Shown here: in pieces, positions 5,478 through 12,482 of the stretch | Layout: each line of letters begins with the position of its first letter | Numbering within the stretch: the stretch's first letter is position 1 | Assembly: GCA_013214545.1 (NCBI GenBank) | Contig: JABSQB010000001.1 | Span: 1 to 50,159, forward strand | Direction of reading: 5' to 3' | DNA length: 50,159 bases | DNA from: Henriciella sp. | GTDB taxonomy: Bacteria > Pseudomonadota > Alphaproteobacteria > Caulobacterales > Hyphomonadaceae | Position numbers and translations under genes: made by a program | The notes under the pieces: model-generated | The model's database searches: none | What the model saw: only the letters and a program-made list of their open reading frames with translations | Told to the model about the DNA's origin: nothing

Positions 5478-6179
5478 TTAAGCGGCAACCGCTTCCTTCT
5501 TCGGTTTCGGATCGCGAAGCACATAGCCGCGGCCCCAAACAGTTTCGATATAGTGCTCGCCGCCTGTGGCCTGCTGCAACTTCTTGCGCAGCTTACAGAT
5601 GAACACGTCGATGATTTTCAGTTCCGGTTCGTCCATACCGCCATACAGGTGGTTGAGGAACATTTCCTTGGTCAGGGTCGTGCCCTTGCGCAAGGAGAGC
5701 AGCTCGAACATCTGGTATTCTTTGCCGGTCAGGTGAACGCGCTCTTCGTCGACTTCGACGGTCTTGGCATCCAGGTTGACCAGGATTTCGCCGGTGCGGA
5801 TGACGCTTTCGGCGTGACCTTTCGAGCGACGGACAATCGCGGTGATGCGCGCGATCAGTTCGTCTTTGTTGAAAGGTTTGGTGAGATAATCATCGGCGCC
5901 GTAGCCGAGCGTCTTCACTTTTGCTTCGATGTCAGGGTTACCAGACAGGATCAGCACAGGCGTATTCACGCGGGCCATGCGGAGCTGTTTCAGCACGTCA
6001 TACCCAGAGATATCCGGCAGAGACAGGTCGAGAATGATGATGTCATACTCGTAGACTTTGCCTAGATCGACGCCCTCTTCACCAAGGTCCGTCGTGTAGA
6101 TGTTAAAGCCTGCCGCTTTCAGCATCAGCTCGATGCTGCGGGCGACCGCATTATCATCTTCGATTAGTAAGACTCGCAT
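5478..6179 (-). CDS. ctrA: cell cycle response regulator CtrA
   Basis: OmpR/PhoB-type response regulator (233 aa) that is the master cell-cycle transcription factor of Caulobacter-like bacteria. The receiver domain (1-115) has the acidic pocket EDD (7-9), phospho-acceptor Asp51 in [10 protein letters not shown] and Lys in LTKPFN. The winged-helix domain (about 125-225) contains the CtrA-typical [14 protein letters not shown] and [12 protein letters not shown]. The C-terminus ends in AVAA, matching the hydrophobic ClpXP degradation tag of CtrA. Family knowledge: it is phosphorylated through CckA-ChpT, binds TTAA-N7-TTAAC sites and is antagonised by SciP, which is also encoded in this window. 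The promoter carries three GANTC sites. Identification is essentially certain. Confidence 0.98.
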
Positions 6180-6302: not shown

Positions 6303-7139
6303 TTAAGCATGCATGTCTTGCCCACTGCGCCCAAGAAGCGTGTGAGCAATGGCGATTACGTCCTGAATTGGCTGTGAGGACGCATTGGTTGAAATTAACG
6401 TTCGCTGGCTGCGGATGGCTTCTCTGACGGCATCATCGCGCATCACTGTACCGGCGAGATGCGGGCGGAAGCCAAGGAAAGTCTGACAGGCCTGCGCGAC
6501 AGCGGAAAACGTGCTCTGACCGGCGGCGCGGGTTTCGCACTGATTGATGGCAATGGTCTGCTCAACGTTCGGGGCATAACCTTTCAGCACTTTGATAAAG
6601 GCATAGGCGTCGGTCATTGAGGTTGGTTCGTCGGTGATCACCATCAGAACCTTGTCGGCCGCGCGCGCCAGGCGCATGCAATTGGCTTCGATGCCAGCGC
6701 CAAGGTCGAGGATGACCTGATCATATTGCAGGGCGAGCGCGGAAAGACCGGCGGCAAGACGAGCGACTTCTTCTGAAGAAAGCTCAGCCAGCGCGCCAGA
6801 TCCGGAGCGGCCCGGCAGAACATCAAATCCGCCCTGGGCAGAGCCGCCATCCACGGGTGTCACGGCATCTTCAAGCTCGACCCAGCCCGCGATCACCGCG
6901 GCCAGATCGGTTTCCGGGGCAATGCCGAGCTGCACATCAACATTTGCGAGGCCAAGGTCGCCATCGACCAGGAGTGTGCGTTTGCCAGCCTGCGCCATGG
7001 CGCTGGCCAGGGTGATCGACATGAAAGTCTTACCGACGCCGCCTTTGCCAGAACCGACCGCGATGATCGAGGCAGGTTCAACGCGCCTTGGGGGGCGCTG
7101 GTTCGGGCGTTCCTGGGATTTGGGAAGAAGGAAGCTCAT
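6303..7139 (-). CDS. flhG: MinD-like ATPase FlhG (FleN)
   Basis: Deviant-Walker-A ATPase (278 aa) of the MinD/ParA family. The P-loop KGGVGKT sits at 32-38 with the signature Lys of the MinD group, the LLVDGDLGLANVDVQLG switch follows at 56-72, and VILDLGAGIEANCMRLA is the Walker B region. LANVDVQLG and DLGAG are typical of FlhG/FleN rather than of MinD or ParA. In flagellated bacteria FlhG counterbalances FlhF and sets flagellar number and position at the cell pole. A short N-terminal extension rich in Arg and Pro precedes the ATPase core. Its ATG overlaps the flhF stop by one base (TAATG), so the pair is translationally coupled. In this genome the partner FlhF looks degenerate. Confidence 0.9.
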   Translation of the reverse strand: MSFLLPKSQERPNQRPPRRVEPASIIAVGSGKGGVGKTFMSITLASAMAQAGKRTLLVDGDLGLANVDVQLGIAPETDLAAVIAGWVELEDAVTPVDGGSAQGGFDVLPGRSGSGALAELSSEEVARLAAGLSALALQYDQVILDLGAGIEANCMRLARAADKVLMVITDEPTSMTDAYAFIKVLKGYAPNVEQTIAINQCETRAAGQSTFSAVAQACQTFLGFRPHLAGTVMRDDAVREAIRSQRTLISTNASSQPIQDVIAIAHTLLGRSGQDMHA

Positions 7140-8143
7140 TACGCGGCTCCTTTAAGAGCAACATGGGCAGGTGCGTCTTCTGTCAGCAACTGCGCCAGTC
7201 GTGTTGGCGTCGCGGGAACCAGCCCACCGCCGATAAACGGTGTGATGGCAAGGTGAGAAAAGGCAATCTTCGCTGAGATCAGGGCCGAGACAATTCCGCC
7301 TCTGCGTCTGGTCACGTCCAGCTTGGTGACGATCGCCCGACGAACGCCGCATCGCGCAAAGGCTCGCGCGGCTTCGCTTAGGTCTTCAGGATGGCCTTCG
7401 GCACTGATCACCAGAACCGGCTCGGCATCGATGACGGCGAGCAGGTCTTGCAGGCTGGCCATATCGTCCTGATCGAAGGGGATAATCGCCGGCATATCGA
7501 TAATGCAGCGTTGTCCCTGCTTCTGGATGTCCCCCAGCAGTTTGAACAGCTCGTCCGGATTGGTCACGGATCGGATCTGATCTTGTTCTTTTTCAAGGTA
7601 GGCGGCGAGTTGGGCCCCGCCAGCGGTAAGGTCGAGGTCCGCCGCGACCGGCAGCACTTCCGCTTTGGCCACGGACGCGCGCCGCGTCAGTTTCGCTGCG
7701 GTAGCCGTGCGGCCATGACCTGGCGCGCCGACGAGCACGATATTGCGGTGCGGCACCGGCGGGATCGGGTCGCAGGAAATTGTGTTTTCGAGACCGGCCG
7801 CAATCGCAGCACTCGGTTCGCTGCCTTCAAATCCATTGGTAATGCCGGCATCGGCAATCCGGTCAGCGAAGCGCTGCGGCGCACCGTGCCAGAGCAGGGC
7901 ATCGCGCACGCGGTTTCGAACCGGACTTTCAACAAGGCGAGGAGATGGTGCGGCGCCAAGACGGGTCAGGATGCGCGATTCACTCGGCACCATACCACCG
8001 CCCATTTTGTCCGTAGCGGCTCGAACTTCCACACCCCCAGGAACTTCGCGTTCGGACAGGATGACAGCGTCATCGCCCATTTCCGCGAAGATCATTGCCT
8101 TTGCAGCCTCGAGGGACTCAGCGGCAAACATCTTCATACGCAT
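7139..8143 (-). CDS. flhF: FlhF-like SRP-type GTPase with degenerate nucleotide-binding motifs
   Basis: A 334-residue homologue of FlhF, the SRP-family GTPase that marks the pole for flagellum assembly. It has the FlhF-specific N-terminus MRMKMFAAESLEAAKAMI, a short helical N domain and a G domain from about 130. Several catalytic elements are altered. The P-loop is GAPGHGRT (139-146) with Arg in place of the invariant Lys. The DTYR/IAAVEQL region reads DLDLTAGGAQLAAY. The DTAGR motif is replaced by IIDMPAIIPFD (214-224). Only TKLD (273-276) is intact. I infer weak or no GTP hydrolysis. I chose the ATG at 8143 because GGAG lies eight bases upstream. The promoter holds a DnaA box, a GANTC site and a CtrA half-site. 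Confidence 0.85.
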   Translation of the reverse strand: MRMKMFAAESLEAAKAMIFAEMGDDAVILSEREVPGGVEVRAATDKMGGGMVPSESRILTRLGAAPSPRLVESPVRNRVRDALLWHGAPQRFADRIADAGITNGFEGSEPSAAIAAGLENTISCDPIPPVPHRNIVLVGAPGHGRTATAAKLTRRASVAKAEVLPVAADLDLTAGGAQLAAYLEKEQDQIRSVTNPDELFKLLGDIQKQGQRCIIDMPAIIPFDQDDMASLQDLLAVIDAEPVLVISAEGHPEDLSEAARAFARCGVRRAIVTKLDVTRRRGGIVSALISAKIAFSHLAITPFIGGGLVPATPTRLAQLLTEDAPAHVALKGAA

Positions 8144-8184
8144 ACGGCACACTCCACTCTAGTGCACCGGAGTGTTGGAGCGAA

Positions 8185-8304: not shown

Positions 8305-9444
8305 TCATTCAGCGGGTTGAAGCTTTGGTGCTGTTGCGGGCAATTCGTTAACATCATCCTCCGCCCGGAACACCGTCTTCTGATTGGGCAGGAATGGCGC
8401 GAGGTAGAGACCTGCCACGGTCATCGGATAATCCGGCGCGGTGCCAATGCCGATATTGTCATGCGGGCGCTCGTCACGCGGATTGTGGAAGGTGCCAAAC
8501 AGAATGTCCCAGACAATGAACTCGCCGCCATAATTGGAGTCGCCAATGCCTTTGTCGGGATAATGATGGTAGCGATGATTGTCGCCAATCGAGAAGATAT
8601 ACTCCCACCAGCCAAGCTCGAGATCGATATTGGAGTGCTGGAAGATGCCAATGCTGAGCTGAAGGATCACAGCGACCAGGGCGACTTCGGCGCTCGGCTG
8701 CACCAGGGCGAGCGGAATAGCATAGAAAATGGCCTGGCTGACAATTTCCAGCGGATGCGCGCGGATTCCGTTCAGCCAATAGAGGCGCTCAACAGAATGG
8801 TGCGCGGCGTGAATGCGCCACAAAGCCGGGATCTCGTGCAGGGCGCGGTGGAACCAGTAGCGGAAGAAGTCTTTGATCAGGATGAACAGGGTAACCTGGA
8901 TGATCAGGTTCCAATCATCAGGCCAGAGATTGTGTCCATAAGGCTCCAGCATTTCGACGATGCCGATGATGAACAGGGCGCTGACAATCAGGCCTGAGAT
9001 CCCGCTCCAGAACGCGCCCGAAAAATACATGATGATGTCGACGGCGGTATCATTGCCGCCTTCCAGCCATTTGCGGCTGTACGGCATCAGTCGTTCCAGC
9101 GGCGCGCAATAGAGGCCGAATATGATTGGCAGCAGGACGAAGCCGAGCAGAGTCAGGCTGGTAATCCCATTCTCGACTAGCCTGTAGCCGATGAAAAAGG
9201 ACAGGATCAGCGTGAACGGAAAGATGGTGTGGGCCAGGACTTTGCGAAGGCGTGTACCTTCCAGCTTGTAAGATAGGCTATCCAAGTGTCGCCAGAACCA
9301 GCGCGTCGGCTTGACCAGCACCCATTGCAAAATGAACTCCAAAGCGTGCAATGGCGCGCCAAGCCAGGTTTCCAGGAAGCGTGCAATGGGGGCCTTTTTC
9401 GGCATTCTACGATTGCTCGTGTTGGGCTGTTGGGCGAGGGCCAT
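8305..9444 (-). CDS. fatty acid hydroxylase / sterol desaturase family membrane protein
   Basis: Integral membrane di-iron oxygenase (379 aa) of the fatty acid hydroxylase superfamily. Hydrophobic segments cover roughly 72-160 and 178-195, with more after 235. The histidine clusters are HRALH (199-203), HAAHH (212-216), a His in RAHPLE (230) and HRYHH near 292-296, which together would ligate the di-iron centre. Members hydroxylate or desaturate lipid, carotenoid or sterol-like substrates using O2; the substrate here is unknown. AGGAG seven bases before the ATG supports the start. The gene interrupts what would otherwise be a continuous flhG-flhF-fliN-flbE-fliG-fliF series on the same strand, and has its own putative operator just upstream. 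Confidence 0.88.
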   Translation of the reverse strand: MALAQQPNTSNRRMPKKAPIARFLETWLGAPLHALEFILQWVLVKPTRWFWRHLDSLSYKLEGTRLRKVLAHTIFPFTLILSFFIGYRLVENGITSLTLLGFVLLPIIFGLYCAPLERLMPYSRKWLEGGNDTAVDIIMYFSGAFWSGISGLIVSALFIIGIVEMLEPYGHNLWPDDWNLIIQVTLFILIKDFFRYWFHRALHEIPALWRIHAAHHSVERLYWLNGIRAHPLEIVSQAIFYAIPLALVQPSAEVALVAVILQLSIGIFQHSNIDLELGWWEYIFSIGDNHRYHHYPDKGIGDSNYGGEFIVWDILFGTFHNPRDERPHDNIGIGTAPDYPMTVAGLYLAPFLPNQKTVFRAEDDVNELPATAPKLQPAE

Positions 9445-9605: not shown

Positions 9606-9872
9606 TTACGCGAAGCCCAGCGAGCGTCCGTCGACGATTTCGCTCAAGGTCACGCCCAGCTGTCCATCTGCGACGACCAGGCGGCCGCGGGCCATAAGGC
9701 GATCTGAAACATAGATATCGACCAGATCGGTTGTGCTGTTTTCCAGCGCGACGATTTCGCCTTCAGACAGAGACATCAGCTCTTCGACCGGCACCCGGGC
9801 TTCGCCGAGCACCACATCAACCTTGACCGGGGCATCCATGAGGCTGTCTTCGAGGGCGCGGTTGACGGTCAT
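9606..9872 (-). CDS. fliN: flagellar motor switch protein FliN
   Basis: A short FliN (88 aa) consisting almost entirely of one SpoA domain. VKVDVVLGEARVPVEEL (16-32), LSEGEIVALENS, VDIYVSDRLMARGRLVVADG and the terminal LGVTLSEI are all canonical FliN/SpoA segments. FliN forms the base of the cytoplasmic C-ring, where it stabilises the switch and binds FliH and CheY. The usual N-terminal extension is almost absent. Its position after fliF, fliG and flbE matches the Caulobacter order, but flbD, which follows fliN there, is missing and the next gene is a fatty acid hydroxylase. There is a 73-base gap to the upstream gene. Confidence 0.93.
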   Translation of the reverse strand: MTVNRALEDSLMDAPVKVDVVLGEARVPVEELMSLSEGEIVALENSTTDLVDIYVSDRLMARGRLVVADGQLGVTLSEIVDGRSLGFA

Positions 9873-9945
9873 CAGGTCTCAATCGTGGTTGGCGTGAACG
9901 CTCAGACTGGCGGTGAATGGTTGCCGAGTGGTGAACAGTTTTGAC

Positions 9946-10299
9946 TTAGCGGCCAAATAAATCGCCTTGGCCTTCAATCACAACTGCGGCGAGGCGGCGC
10001 ACGCGCTCCAGCGCGTCCTTGCGGTCAGTTTCGTCAATCGCTGCGTGTTCAAGATGCGCCGCGAGATCAACGATGCCGGCCAAGACCTTCTTGAGATCGT
10101 CAGACGCTTGCGCAAGCTTGCTGGCCTCCGCGGCGAGCGTGTCATTACGGGCGATAGACGCGCCGCTCGCCTGCGCATCGCTGAGCAGTAGGGCCAGATC
10201 CTGCGGCGTCATCCGAACCGTATCTGCTTCTTTTGGCGCCGGCGCGCTGAAATCGCTGGCAAACGGATAAGGCTCGATTTTCTCAACGCGGCGCTTCAT
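9946..10299 (-). CDS. FlbE/FliH-like flagellar assembly protein
   Basis: A 117-residue, mostly helical acidic protein located between fliG and fliN, the place of flbE (fliH) in Caulobacter-type operons. The N-terminus (KRRVEKIEPYPFASDFS) resembles the conserved start of FliH/FlbE proteins, with aromatic residues that in FliH contact the export apparatus. The rest (about 35-115) is a coiled-coil-like region with alternating Ala, Leu and charged residues. FliH proteins are normally around 200 or more residues; the C-terminal domain that binds the FliI ATPase appears to be missing. The start overlaps the fliG stop by four bases. The assignment rests mainly on gene order and the N-terminus. Confidence 0.6.
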   Translation of the reverse strand: MKRRVEKIEPYPFASDFSAPAPKEADTVRMTPQDLALLLSDAQASGASIARNDTLAAEASKLAQASDDLKKVLAGIVDLAAHLEHAAIDETDRKDALERVRRLAAVVIEGQGDLFGR

Positions 10300-11222
10300 T
10301 CGATCAGCTCGTCTTCAGCGTCATGGGTCAGGATGTCGCCGCGTTTGACCAATGCGCGCGCAATCTCGATGATCTCGCTGCGAGCGGCGTCAATCTCGCT
10401 GCGCCGGATTGGACCCGCAGCTTCAATCTCATCGCGGAGCAGGTCGCCGGCGCGTTGGGTGATGTTCGCGAAGAAGGCCTCGGAGACGGGAGCCGGGGCA
10501 CCTTTCAGAGCGAACGTGAGTACGGCCCGATCGACGCTTCCAAGAATGGTCTGCAGGCTGGCCGCATCGAGATTGGCCAGGTCTTCGAAAGTGAACATGA
10601 AGGCTCTGATCTTCTCGCCTGCGCCAGGTTCGGCCGTATCGAGCGACGACAAGAGCGATTGTTCAGCCTTGCTGTCGAGACGGTCGAAGATGCGCGCGAC
10701 GTGCTCATGCCCGCCTTGCGTGCGGCTGGGGCTCGCCTGATCGAGACGGGTCTGTAAAGCAAGCTCCAATCCCCTGATCGCGGCAGGATGAATCTCCCCA
10801 AGGCTCAACATGCGTTTCAGCGCTTCTGTTGCGAGGGCGCGGGGCAGGGTCTGAACCGCACTGGCGGCGGTTTCCGGGGCGAGCCGCGACAGGACCAGCG
10901 CAATCACTTGCGGGCTTTCCTTGTCGACGAGGCTCGCGACGAAGCTGCCCTCATGGCGGGACAGACGGTCCCAGAAGGAGGATGGGGCTGCGGCCTGCGC
11001 CGGAGCGATGGTCGCCATCGAAGTCACATAGGTCTGCACAGCGCGTTGCTCGGCGGCGGCATCCTCAGGCATAGCCCGCATGGCGGCGCTCAATTGTTCG
11101 GCTTCCTGCGGTGAGAGCTGTGACCACACAGCCGAAGCGCGTGCGCCGAGCGCCCGCATTAGCAGGGCGCTGCGCTGCAAACCGCTATTGATTGGGGAAG
11201 GGGCGCGCGCAGGAAGGGTCAT
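10296..11222 (-). CDS. fliG: flagellar motor switch protein FliG
   Basis: FliG (308 aa) links the MS-ring protein FliF to the C-ring and carries the torque-transmitting helix. The N-terminal FliF-binding domain covers about 12-75. The middle domain has ESPQVIALVLSRL (102-114), where the conserved EHPQ is ESPQ. The C-terminal domain (about 175-298) has FTFEDLANLD and the torque region. The charged residues that act in the E. coli motor are all present by alignment: Lys240 (FALKG), Arg257 (TQRAG), Asp264-Glu265 (LLRDEI) and Arg273 (GPIR). This argues for continuing selection. It starts immediately after the fliF stop codon and overlaps the next gene by four bases. It is somewhat shorter than the usual 330 or more residues. 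Confidence 0.95.
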   Translation of the reverse strand: MTLPARAPSPINSGLQRSALLMRALGARASAVWSQLSPQEAEQLSAAMRAMPEDAAAEQRAVQTYVTSMATIAPAQAAAPSSFWDRLSRHEGSFVASLVDKESPQVIALVLSRLAPETAASAVQTLPRALATEALKRMLSLGEIHPAAIRGLELALQTRLDQASPSRTQGGHEHVARIFDRLDSKAEQSLLSSLDTAEPGAGEKIRAFMFTFEDLANLDAASLQTILGSVDRAVLTFALKGAPAPVSEAFFANITQRAGDLLRDEIEAAGPIRRSEIDAARSEIIEIARALVKRGDILTHDAEDELIE

Positions 11223-11870
11223 CTATTCCTCCGCATAAGACAGCCAGCCGCGGACCAGACTTGCGGTCTCATTCGGCTTGGTTTCTGCCAATTGCGCAGC
11301 TTCGTTCAGCTGCGCGCCAATGCTGGTATCCGGCGCGGGCAGCCGCGTTGGCTGAGGAAGCACGGTGTCGCGCCGCGGCTGTGGGGCGGCAGGGGCGGCT
11401 TCGACGCGCGTCGAAGTCGGAACGCCGATCAAGCCGGCAAAGAGCAGGGCGCTCAGCAGGCCAAGGCCCGTTAGCTCAGCGATCTGCAATGGTGTCAGAG
11501 AGCTGCCGACGCCGCGGGCAAACGGGAACTGCGTCAGGGTCAGCGTTTCGCTGGTCGGATCGAAGCCAATTCCGGCGATCAGGATATTCTCAATCTGTGT
11601 CCGAACTGCGCGCAGATCGCTGCCCATTTCGCCGTCAATCATGATCAAGATGGTGCGATCGCTGCGACCGGTGACGGAAACCCGGACTTTTTCAGCGCCG
11701 GTGATCGGTTCCAGAAGATAGGTCAGTTCTCGCTCAACAGAATTGCCGACAGGTTCTGATTTCACTCCGCCGAACACATCATAGACCCGCAAAGACAAAA
11801 GCCCCGCTGCGAGGACAAACGCAGCCAGGGCTATCAGTCGTAGATAAGGAGGGCGGGTTTTCGCGCTCAT
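11223..11870 (-). CDS. fliF: miniature FliF: MS-ring protein lacking RBM1, RBM2 and the beta-collar
   Basis: A 215-residue protein clearly related to the C-terminal part of FliF. It has a first membrane helix (about 11-28), then a single ring-building motif corresponding to RBM3 (about 45-118): ELTYLLEPITGAEKVRVSV matches the first half and ILIMIDG with IENILIAGIGFDP and LTLTQFPFA the second. In full-length FliF (about 550 aa) these halves are separated by the beta-collar insertion, which is absent here, as are RBM1 and RBM2. A second membrane helix (about 128-150), a Pro-rich linker and the FliG-binding tail ETASLVRGWLSYAEE follow. I chose the ATG at 11870 (AAGGTG five bases upstream); an upstream ATG at 11903 exists. 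It is first in the operon with fliG. Confidence 0.85.
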   Translation of the reverse strand: MSAKTRPPYLRLIALAAFVLAAGLLSLRVYDVFGGVKSEPVGNSVERELTYLLEPITGAEKVRVSVTGRSDRTILIMIDGEMGSDLRAVRTQIENILIAGIGFDPTSETLTLTQFPFARGVGSSLTPLQIAELTGLGLLSALLFAGLIGVPTSTRVEAAPAAPQPRRDTVLPQPTRLPAPDTSIGAQLNEAAQLAETKPNETASLVRGWLSYAEE

Positions 11871-11998
11871 CAAGACACCTTCGCCCGGCGCAGATGCGGG
11901 CATACCCGTTTCTTTTACGGGCGGCGTCGTAAACGGCGCTTTAACACCGGCCTTGTCCCCTCAGACCGATCACATGCGATATGCGATCGATTTGAGCG

Positions 11999-12268
11999 CT
12001 AGGCGCGGTACTGTTGCAGCCGTGTTGTGCGCAGGCCTTTGCGGCCGTGCTTGGAATAAAGAGCCCGCCAGCCGGAGAATTCTTCTTCGCTGAGATCGTA
12101 GCGACGAAGCGCTTCTTCCTCAGAAAGCAAACCGCCGCTTACGGCAGCGACAACTTCTGCTTTGCGGCGAGTTACCCAGCGGGTAATGCCAGGCTTTGGC
12201 AGGTCTGAAAGTGTCAGCGGTCGACCGTCAGGGCCTCTCACGCTGAGAGATTGAGCATTCTGCGCCAT
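11999..12268 (-). CDS. sciP: small CtrA inhibitory protein SciP (DUF1153)
   Basis: An 89-residue helix-turn-helix protein of the DUF1153 family. The conserved GPDGRPLTLSDLP, ITRWVTRRKAEVVAAVSGGL, a tandem of helices SEEEALRRYDLSEEEFSGW and the C-terminal GLRTTRLQQYR are diagnostic. In Caulobacter SciP binds CtrA and blocks activation of CtrA-dependent promoters, including flagellar ones, in early G1, and it is encoded next to fliF as here. I chose the ATG at 12268 because GGTGA lies five bases upstream; an ATG at 12280 is the alternative. The presence of SciP and CtrA at either end of the flagellar-rotor cassette suggests the cassette is under cell-cycle control. Confidence 0.93.
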   Translation of the reverse strand: MAQNAQSLSVRGPDGRPLTLSDLPKPGITRWVTRRKAEVVAAVSGGLLSEEEALRRYDLSEEEFSGWRALYSKHGRKGLRTTRLQQYRA

Positions 12269-12482
12269 TTTGTTCACCATCTTCTGTTGGTTTAACAAGC
12301 CACTTCTGTAGCCATGGCACGCTTATACAGGCGCGGAATTAAATCCGATTTCAAACCGATCTGTGAATTTTCCTGAAAATTGCACACAACCCAGCGCGCC
12401 GCGTTAGGACGCTGTTTGCAAACCTGTCCCGATTTGGATCAGCCAATGGTGACAACAGGTTCAGAGGTGAAATCTGAAACGC

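Follow-up and report, generated by a model that had tools for sequence, protein, structure and literature searches.

Architecture and distribution of the cassette

On the reverse strand of the window, by which we mean the whole 50,159-nt stretch of DNA that was analysed, a compact set of flagellar rotor genes lies between sciP and ctrA. The first gene, sciP (11999..12298, -), scores above the cut-off of the NCBIfam model for the CtrA inhibitor SciP and stands directly upstream of fliF in the mini locus described here and in native loci alike. The mini fliF (11223..11870, -) encodes 215 aa, or 226 aa if translation starts at the ATG at 11903, arranged as a first transmembrane helix, an RBM3 domain without the beta-collar, a second transmembrane helix, a disordered linker and a FliG-binding tail; it does not have the RBM1, RBM2 and collared RBM3 of a full-length FliF. 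The adjoining fliG (10296..11222, -; 308 aa) retains its middle and C-terminal domains and has a shortened N domain, matched by Pfam FliG_N only over positions 3-53 of 104. Next come a shortened fliH (9946..10299, -; 117 aa), which keeps the N-terminal part, has lost the C-terminal domain and by eye shares a terminal LF motif with native FliH, and fliN (9606..9872, -), a bare SpoA domain of 88 aa where native relatives have 113-119 aa. The proportions and layout of FliF had been described correctly in the sequence-only reading, as had the loss of the FliH C-terminal domain and the reduction of FliN. Beyond a fatty-acid-hydroxylase gene (8305..9444, -), which occupies the position between fliN and flhF in the closest relatives only and is not part of the module, lie an flhF-like gene (7139..8152, -), whose P-loop has changed from SGKT to HGRT in the mini lineage, a strongly conserved flhG-like gene for a MinD/ParA ATPase (6303..7139, -) and ctrA (5478..6179, -).

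A Foldseek search with the FliF model gave no match at E<=0.001, and ribosomal KH-like domains ranked beside FliF, so that the fold alone would not have identified the protein. The CtrA box TTAA-N7-TTAA, with one mismatch allowed, matched four times in the window against 3.05 expected by chance, and its occurrence near sciP and fliF is therefore uninformative. An assembly artefact or a chance reading frame was ruled out by conservation in dozens of genomes and by low dN/dS.

The short FliF was detected by single-sequence search in 70 of the 105 genomes of the family Hyphomonadaceae. Searches with a profile of the FliF alignment, in which no more than seven first-look candidates were scored for each genome, so that members may have been missed, gave matches in 113 of the 398 order-level genomes (67 of them Hyphomonadaceae, 46 not) and in 25 of 385 at the level of the class. 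Of the 46 order-level matches outside the family, 44 were frames of 507-910 aa, ordinary FliF proteins matched over their second half, and two were short frames (G261, 75 aa; G348, 207 aa) matched by the profile end only. At class level, two matched genomes were Hyphomonadaceae with the short form and the other 23 had frames of at least 541 aa, except G705 (126 aa, profile end only). Cassette records bearing a genus name belong to Henriciella and Hyphomonas.

Gene order is conserved as well. SciP adjoins the short FliF in all 38 loci read, often with flhF-flhG-ctrA also present, and the order sciP-fliF-fliG-fliH-fliN-flhF-flhG-ctrA, with ctrA closing the block, was found in 20/20 loci. Among 79 loci selected by FlhG, the fliFGHN-flhFG run occurs in 36 (one of them, L158, with just a FliF fragment), and 34 of these have sciP first and ctrA present; 29 of the remaining loci have no FliG in the stretch, 13 have a full-type FliF and one is cut. 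In some members the sciP-fliFGHN half is located apart from flhFG-ctrA. In one genome (G089, locus L173) the reading frame of the cassette FliG is interrupted, leaving one frame of 75 aa and another of 240 aa.

Ancestry of the cassette and the separate swimming flagellum

Contig C57 of the same genome carries a complete second flagellar set, comprising its own FliF (509 aa), FliG, a FliM-size SpoA protein, FliN, FliP, a FliI-type ATPase, FlhA (the one copy in the genome), FlbT, flagellin, FlgD, FlgH, FlgI, FlgK, two FliL, five rod/hook-family matches, MotA and MotB. The sequence-only reading had reasoned that the cassette would be a paralogue if the genome also contained, elsewhere, a full-length fliF together with a complete set of flagellar genes. 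Such a set does exist; nevertheless, the cassette is not merely a paralogue, because the C57 set is of a distinct type, its FliG forming a separate clade (100/100), and because the cassette survives in nine genomes without detected flagellum genes. A simple recent paralogy with the C57 genes is ruled out by the same separation of the FliGs. The mini FliGs make up a single clade (100/97) that lies on the same side as the native FliGs from the sciP locus, in a tree that we took as unrooted; the E. coli row joins the mini clade there, on a long branch that the program flagged. The short FliF, for which it had been asked whether it defines a clade, goes with this one FliG clade and is a family trait.

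A comparable island is known from Hyphomonas neptunium, whose swimming flagellum belongs to the same bacterial family, consists of homologous proteins and is linked to CtrA; its motility island, HNE_0239-HNE_0276, is a complete set that spans the flagellin gene number HNE_0264, and motility is lost in a fliL mutant (PMC7200025, in excerpt). Genome G041, which is probably H. neptunium, has FliF at 233 kb and FlhA at 258-260 kb, and by this position the island would match the C57 type and not the cassette. A search of 20 genomes for CheW detected it in just two; our own (G000) was not one of them, despite its complete flagellum. CheY-type switching of the mini motor is thus unsupported, although its FliM keeps the EIEALL segment described below. 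Second matches to FHIPEP, the FlhA family, occur in G079, G081, G098 and G099, the third of which also has a second FliF_C match; this suggests extra flagellar or secretion systems in these four genomes.

Comparison with native loci is indicative of how the cassette arose. In Ponticaulis and other Hyphomonadaceae (L143 and L181, with FlbD and FlhA named by NCBIfam in the latter), the native order is flgE-sciP-fliF-fliG-fliH-fliN-flbD-flhA-flhF-flhG, with a FliF of 548-593 aa. Relative to it, the mini locus has lost flbD and flhA from between fliN and flhF, and FliF, FliH, FliN and the FliG N domain have all been cut. At a second locus, the native genome G032 has flgI, dksA, flgH, flgA, two rod genes, fliL and fliM; in a second native genome, G077, flgH, rod genes, fliL and fliM are found, with dksA not beside fliM. 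In the mini lineage, FliM of a second kind (FliM2) directly follows dksA in 10/10 loci, and FlgH, FlgG and FliL gave no match in the dksA/FliM2 stretch of any of the ten. Taken together, the sciP and dksA loci point to the same pruning at two places, in which motor parts were kept and propeller parts lost. The corresponding stator genes, judged by their neighbours, appear to be ancestral too and seem to have stayed in place: motB2 has six neighbours in common with the native genes of G032 and motA2 one, while no shared neighbour was found for motA in G077.

In all ten mini-lineage dksA loci, a 428-aa protein (L184:272-1558, -) is encoded divergently beside dksA/FliM2. It has apparent membrane helices at both ends, as judged by eye. 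Neither of the native stretches around fliM contains a match to it, and none was found in Pfam at E<=0.05 or among PDB sequences at E<=1; we regard it as a candidate partner of the stripped motor. Near the motA2 locus, at a contig end (L183, 1-378), lies a partial ORF that by eye resembles a transposase.

Motor residues and retention without flagellum genes

We compared 56 distinct mini FliGs at the positions that we take to be those of the classical torque helix. K264 is kept in 55/56, R281 in 56/56, an acidic residue at 289 in 56/56 and a basic residue at 297 in 55/56. The claim that FliG keeps all torque-helix charges is therefore accurate for four of five positions and too strong for position 288, which is acidic in only 38/56; the EHPQ motif is also variable. 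In the FliG of the organism's swimming flagellum, three of these five classical positions differ. On the stator side, MotA2, a MotA_N protein, has E98, P173, P222 and R/K90 in 10/10 sequences, and MotB2, with MotB_plug and OmpA domains, has Asp32 in all of at least 12 MotB2-type rows. FliM2 is a FliM by profile (probability 97.5, E 5.1e-12) that keeps the N-terminal EIEALL segment and the SpoA domain, with an eroded middle domain left unmatched by PF02154. The FlhF P-loop reads HGRT in 57/58 mini-lineage sequences as against GKT in 15/16 native ones (SGKT in 14/16), from which its GTPase cycle may be altered.

Nine cassette genomes, belonging to four genera, have neither PF08345 nor FlhA. All are drafts and six match MAG records, so that a missed contig could hide a flagellar island; their completeness is 100% (G020), 99% (G028 and G061), 95% (G025), 93% (G073), 90% (G030), 88% (G002), 86% (G003) and 80% (G088). 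In G030 only a partial FliF was recovered by the profile search, and in G003 the short FliF was seen in locus reading only. A further genome, G068, lacks FliF_C and has FlhA, and was left out of the count. The rod/hook family PF00460 was found in 0/9 of the flagellum-less cassette genomes compared with 8/8 flagellated genomes among the same 20, and with the export gate (FlhA/FHIPEP) absent from all nine, neither a flagellum nor the inner ring of an injectisome is indicated. What these genomes do retain, in every case, is one FliG_C, one MotA_N, one FliM-size and one FliN-size protein, and MotB_plug is kept in seven, no MotB having been found in G030 and G088. By comparison, in each of six flagellated cassette genomes, our own included, MotA, MotB and FliG are present twice and FliM/FliN domains four times. 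In the small genomes G001, G013 and G031, neither FliG nor the short FliF was found, and other parts are missing to differing degrees.

Because several dS values are near or past saturation, the dN/dS ratios given here are rough. Over four pairs, dN/dS was 0.11-0.18 for FliF and 0.07-0.18 for FliG. In pairs of flagellum-less genomes it was 0.07-0.21 for FliG, 0.08-0.12 for MotA2, 0.13-0.22 for MotB2, 0.06-0.12 for FliN, 0.20-0.22 for FliH and 0.27-0.48 for FliF, and it was 0.32 for FliM2, for which a single pair was computable. By this measure, stator and FliG are still constrained in genomes without flagella, and FliF less so. Retention even where no flagellum genes were found means that the cassette probably has a job other than swimming. 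The genes motA2, motB2 and fliM2 are not linked to the cassette, and co-retention suggests that their products are its partners. As judged from sequence, the cassette would supply the rotor of a rotor-stator set whose genes are dispersed and retained together, in cells that swim by another flagellum or not at all.

A proposed stripped motor and its alternatives

These results support the proposal of the sequence-only reading that the genes encode a rotor complex in reduced form that serves a non-flagellar purpose. The example given there, a polar scaffold, fares less well, since the same genomes retain FliM and MotA of the second kind, in most cases MotB as well, and residues critical to a stator, which points to an energised rotor-stator unit. 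In the explanation that we favour, and consider fairly probable, the cassette is the retained core of an ancestral Caulobacterales-type motor, a rotor driven by MotA2B2 that serves as a load or surface sensor. Gene content, loci, selection and retention are sequence results; assembly, rotation, placement and sensing, as we infer them, would be as follows. The ancestral motor would have been stripped of export gate, rod, hook and filament, with swimming taken over by a second set, here the one on C57. Mini FliF with FliG, FliM2 and FliN would form a ring in the inner membrane, driven by a peptidoglycan-anchored, proton-conducting MotA2B2 stator and probably placed at the pole by FlhF and FlhG, and the stripped motor would be used to sense load or surface contact. 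The stronger statement, that this is a free-standing, filament-less rotary motor derived by pruning of a flagellum and dedicated, independently of any flagellum, to sensing or actuation at a cell-cycle-controlled pole, we advance tentatively, as somewhat more doubtful than not.

The position of a stripped motor beside sciP and ctrA would fit a dedicated signalling rotor. The relatives in question also attach by a holdfast. In Caulobacter crescentus, whose motor is built from the same FliF, FliG, FliM, FliN, MotA and MotB families, mutants with the inner rotor and without outer flagellar parts activate the holdfast via MotB and the stator-associated cyclase DgcB; this activation needs proton flux and an assembled rotor with engaged stators, and it is this rotor that drives c-di-GMP and holdfast signalling in them (PMC7885107, in excerpt). 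That organism, however, has one full motor with export gate and filament, whereas the motor considered here is permanently stripped, has a one-RBM FliF and is encoded apart from the swimming flagellum. Furthermore, the same paper argues that Caulobacter normally responds to load on its filament rather than to a motor without a tether, so that sensing without a filament would need another source of load. Several observations count against the retained-motor reading. FliL is gone from the FliM2 locus, the middle domain of FliM2 is eroded, FliG varies at position 288 and in the EHPQ motif, and the P-loop lysine of FlhF is replaced by arginine. Also on this side are the separate location of motA2, motB2 and fliM2, the faster evolution of FliF in flagellum-less genomes, the missing parts of the set in G001, G013 and G031, and the finding in G077 of no shared neighbours for motA and no dksA by fliM.

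Alternatively, the cassette may be a passive polar scaffold or landmark, in which a mini MS/C ring placed by FlhF/FlhG would recruit polar proteins with CtrA/SciP timing and would not rotate, MotA2 and MotB2 serving something else. This is the main rival, and we think it unlikely. The linkage to flhF-flhG-ctrA and to sciP, the location of motA2, motB2 and fliM2 elsewhere, the eroded FliM2 and the altered P-loop are all as a scaffold would have them. A non-rotating ring would leave unexplained, however, why torque-helix charges are kept across the 56 mini FliGs and why stator genes with ion-path residues are co-retained in flagellum-less genomes, and in part of the lineage the fliFGHN half lies apart from flhFG-ctrA. 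FlhF and FlhG normally place polar flagella, and a second flagellum is present in most cassette genomes, which would suit an accessory of the swimming flagellum that helps to place it at the pole or lends the C57-type motor a second pair of stator proteins or components of a hybrid rotor. Such a role is improbable, as the C57 set has its own FliF, FliG, FliM, FliN, MotA, MotB and FliL, and as nine genomes with no detected flagellum retain the cassette. Least probable is a decaying vestige without present function, for which the domain losses in FliF, FliG, FliH and FliN, the absent parts in small genomes, the FliG in two frames in G089 and the faster FliF evolution without flagella could be cited, against gene order, low dN/dS and key residues conserved over two main genera.

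Among known systems, the stripped motor resembles several in part. Rotor proteins without a filament, termed half motors, were reported in 11% of non-motile species, with an alternative function raised as possible; in the excerpt of that census (PMC12199754) no mechanism is given, and its main text does not contain the word Hyphomonas, whereas the present case brings together rotor, stator, synteny, selection and a one-domain FliF. Non-flagellated Lysobacter likewise kept a partial flagellar gene set after losing swimming, as the mirror image of the present case: fliG, fliM, motA, motB, rod and filament genes were lost and the export system is still functional according to the authors (PMC9927559, in excerpt), while the present set retains its motor and has lost the genes for export gate and rod. 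ExbBD, TolQR, AglR and Zorya are ion-driven stator relatives in non-flagellar work (PMC12505986, in excerpt); unlike them, the present set has a MotB2 of OmpA type with MotB_plug, a MotA2 with MotA_N, and a FliG/FliM/FliN rotor. The Hat-like complex, for which H. neptunium is one of many species on record, is maintained in the absence of FliF and follows the export system (PMC9380563, in excerpt), and is thus unmatched by the cassette. Among the matches listed from open-licence PMC text, titles and the beginnings of abstracts did not describe a short FliF or a flagellum-free MotAB/FliGMN motor.

If the favoured explanation is right, the cassette would offer a natural minimal MS ring with one RBM and no collar, a test case for whether motor-based surface sensing depends on a filament, and a detailed example of how a flagellum can turn into a machine for purposes other than motility. 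As a conserved half motor, it has a pruning history traceable at two loci, conserved torque and proton sites, and purifying selection after apparent loss of the flagellum. The cassette appears to be present in H. neptunium, going by the presumed identity of G041, a species in which mutants have been made (PMC7200025, in excerpt).
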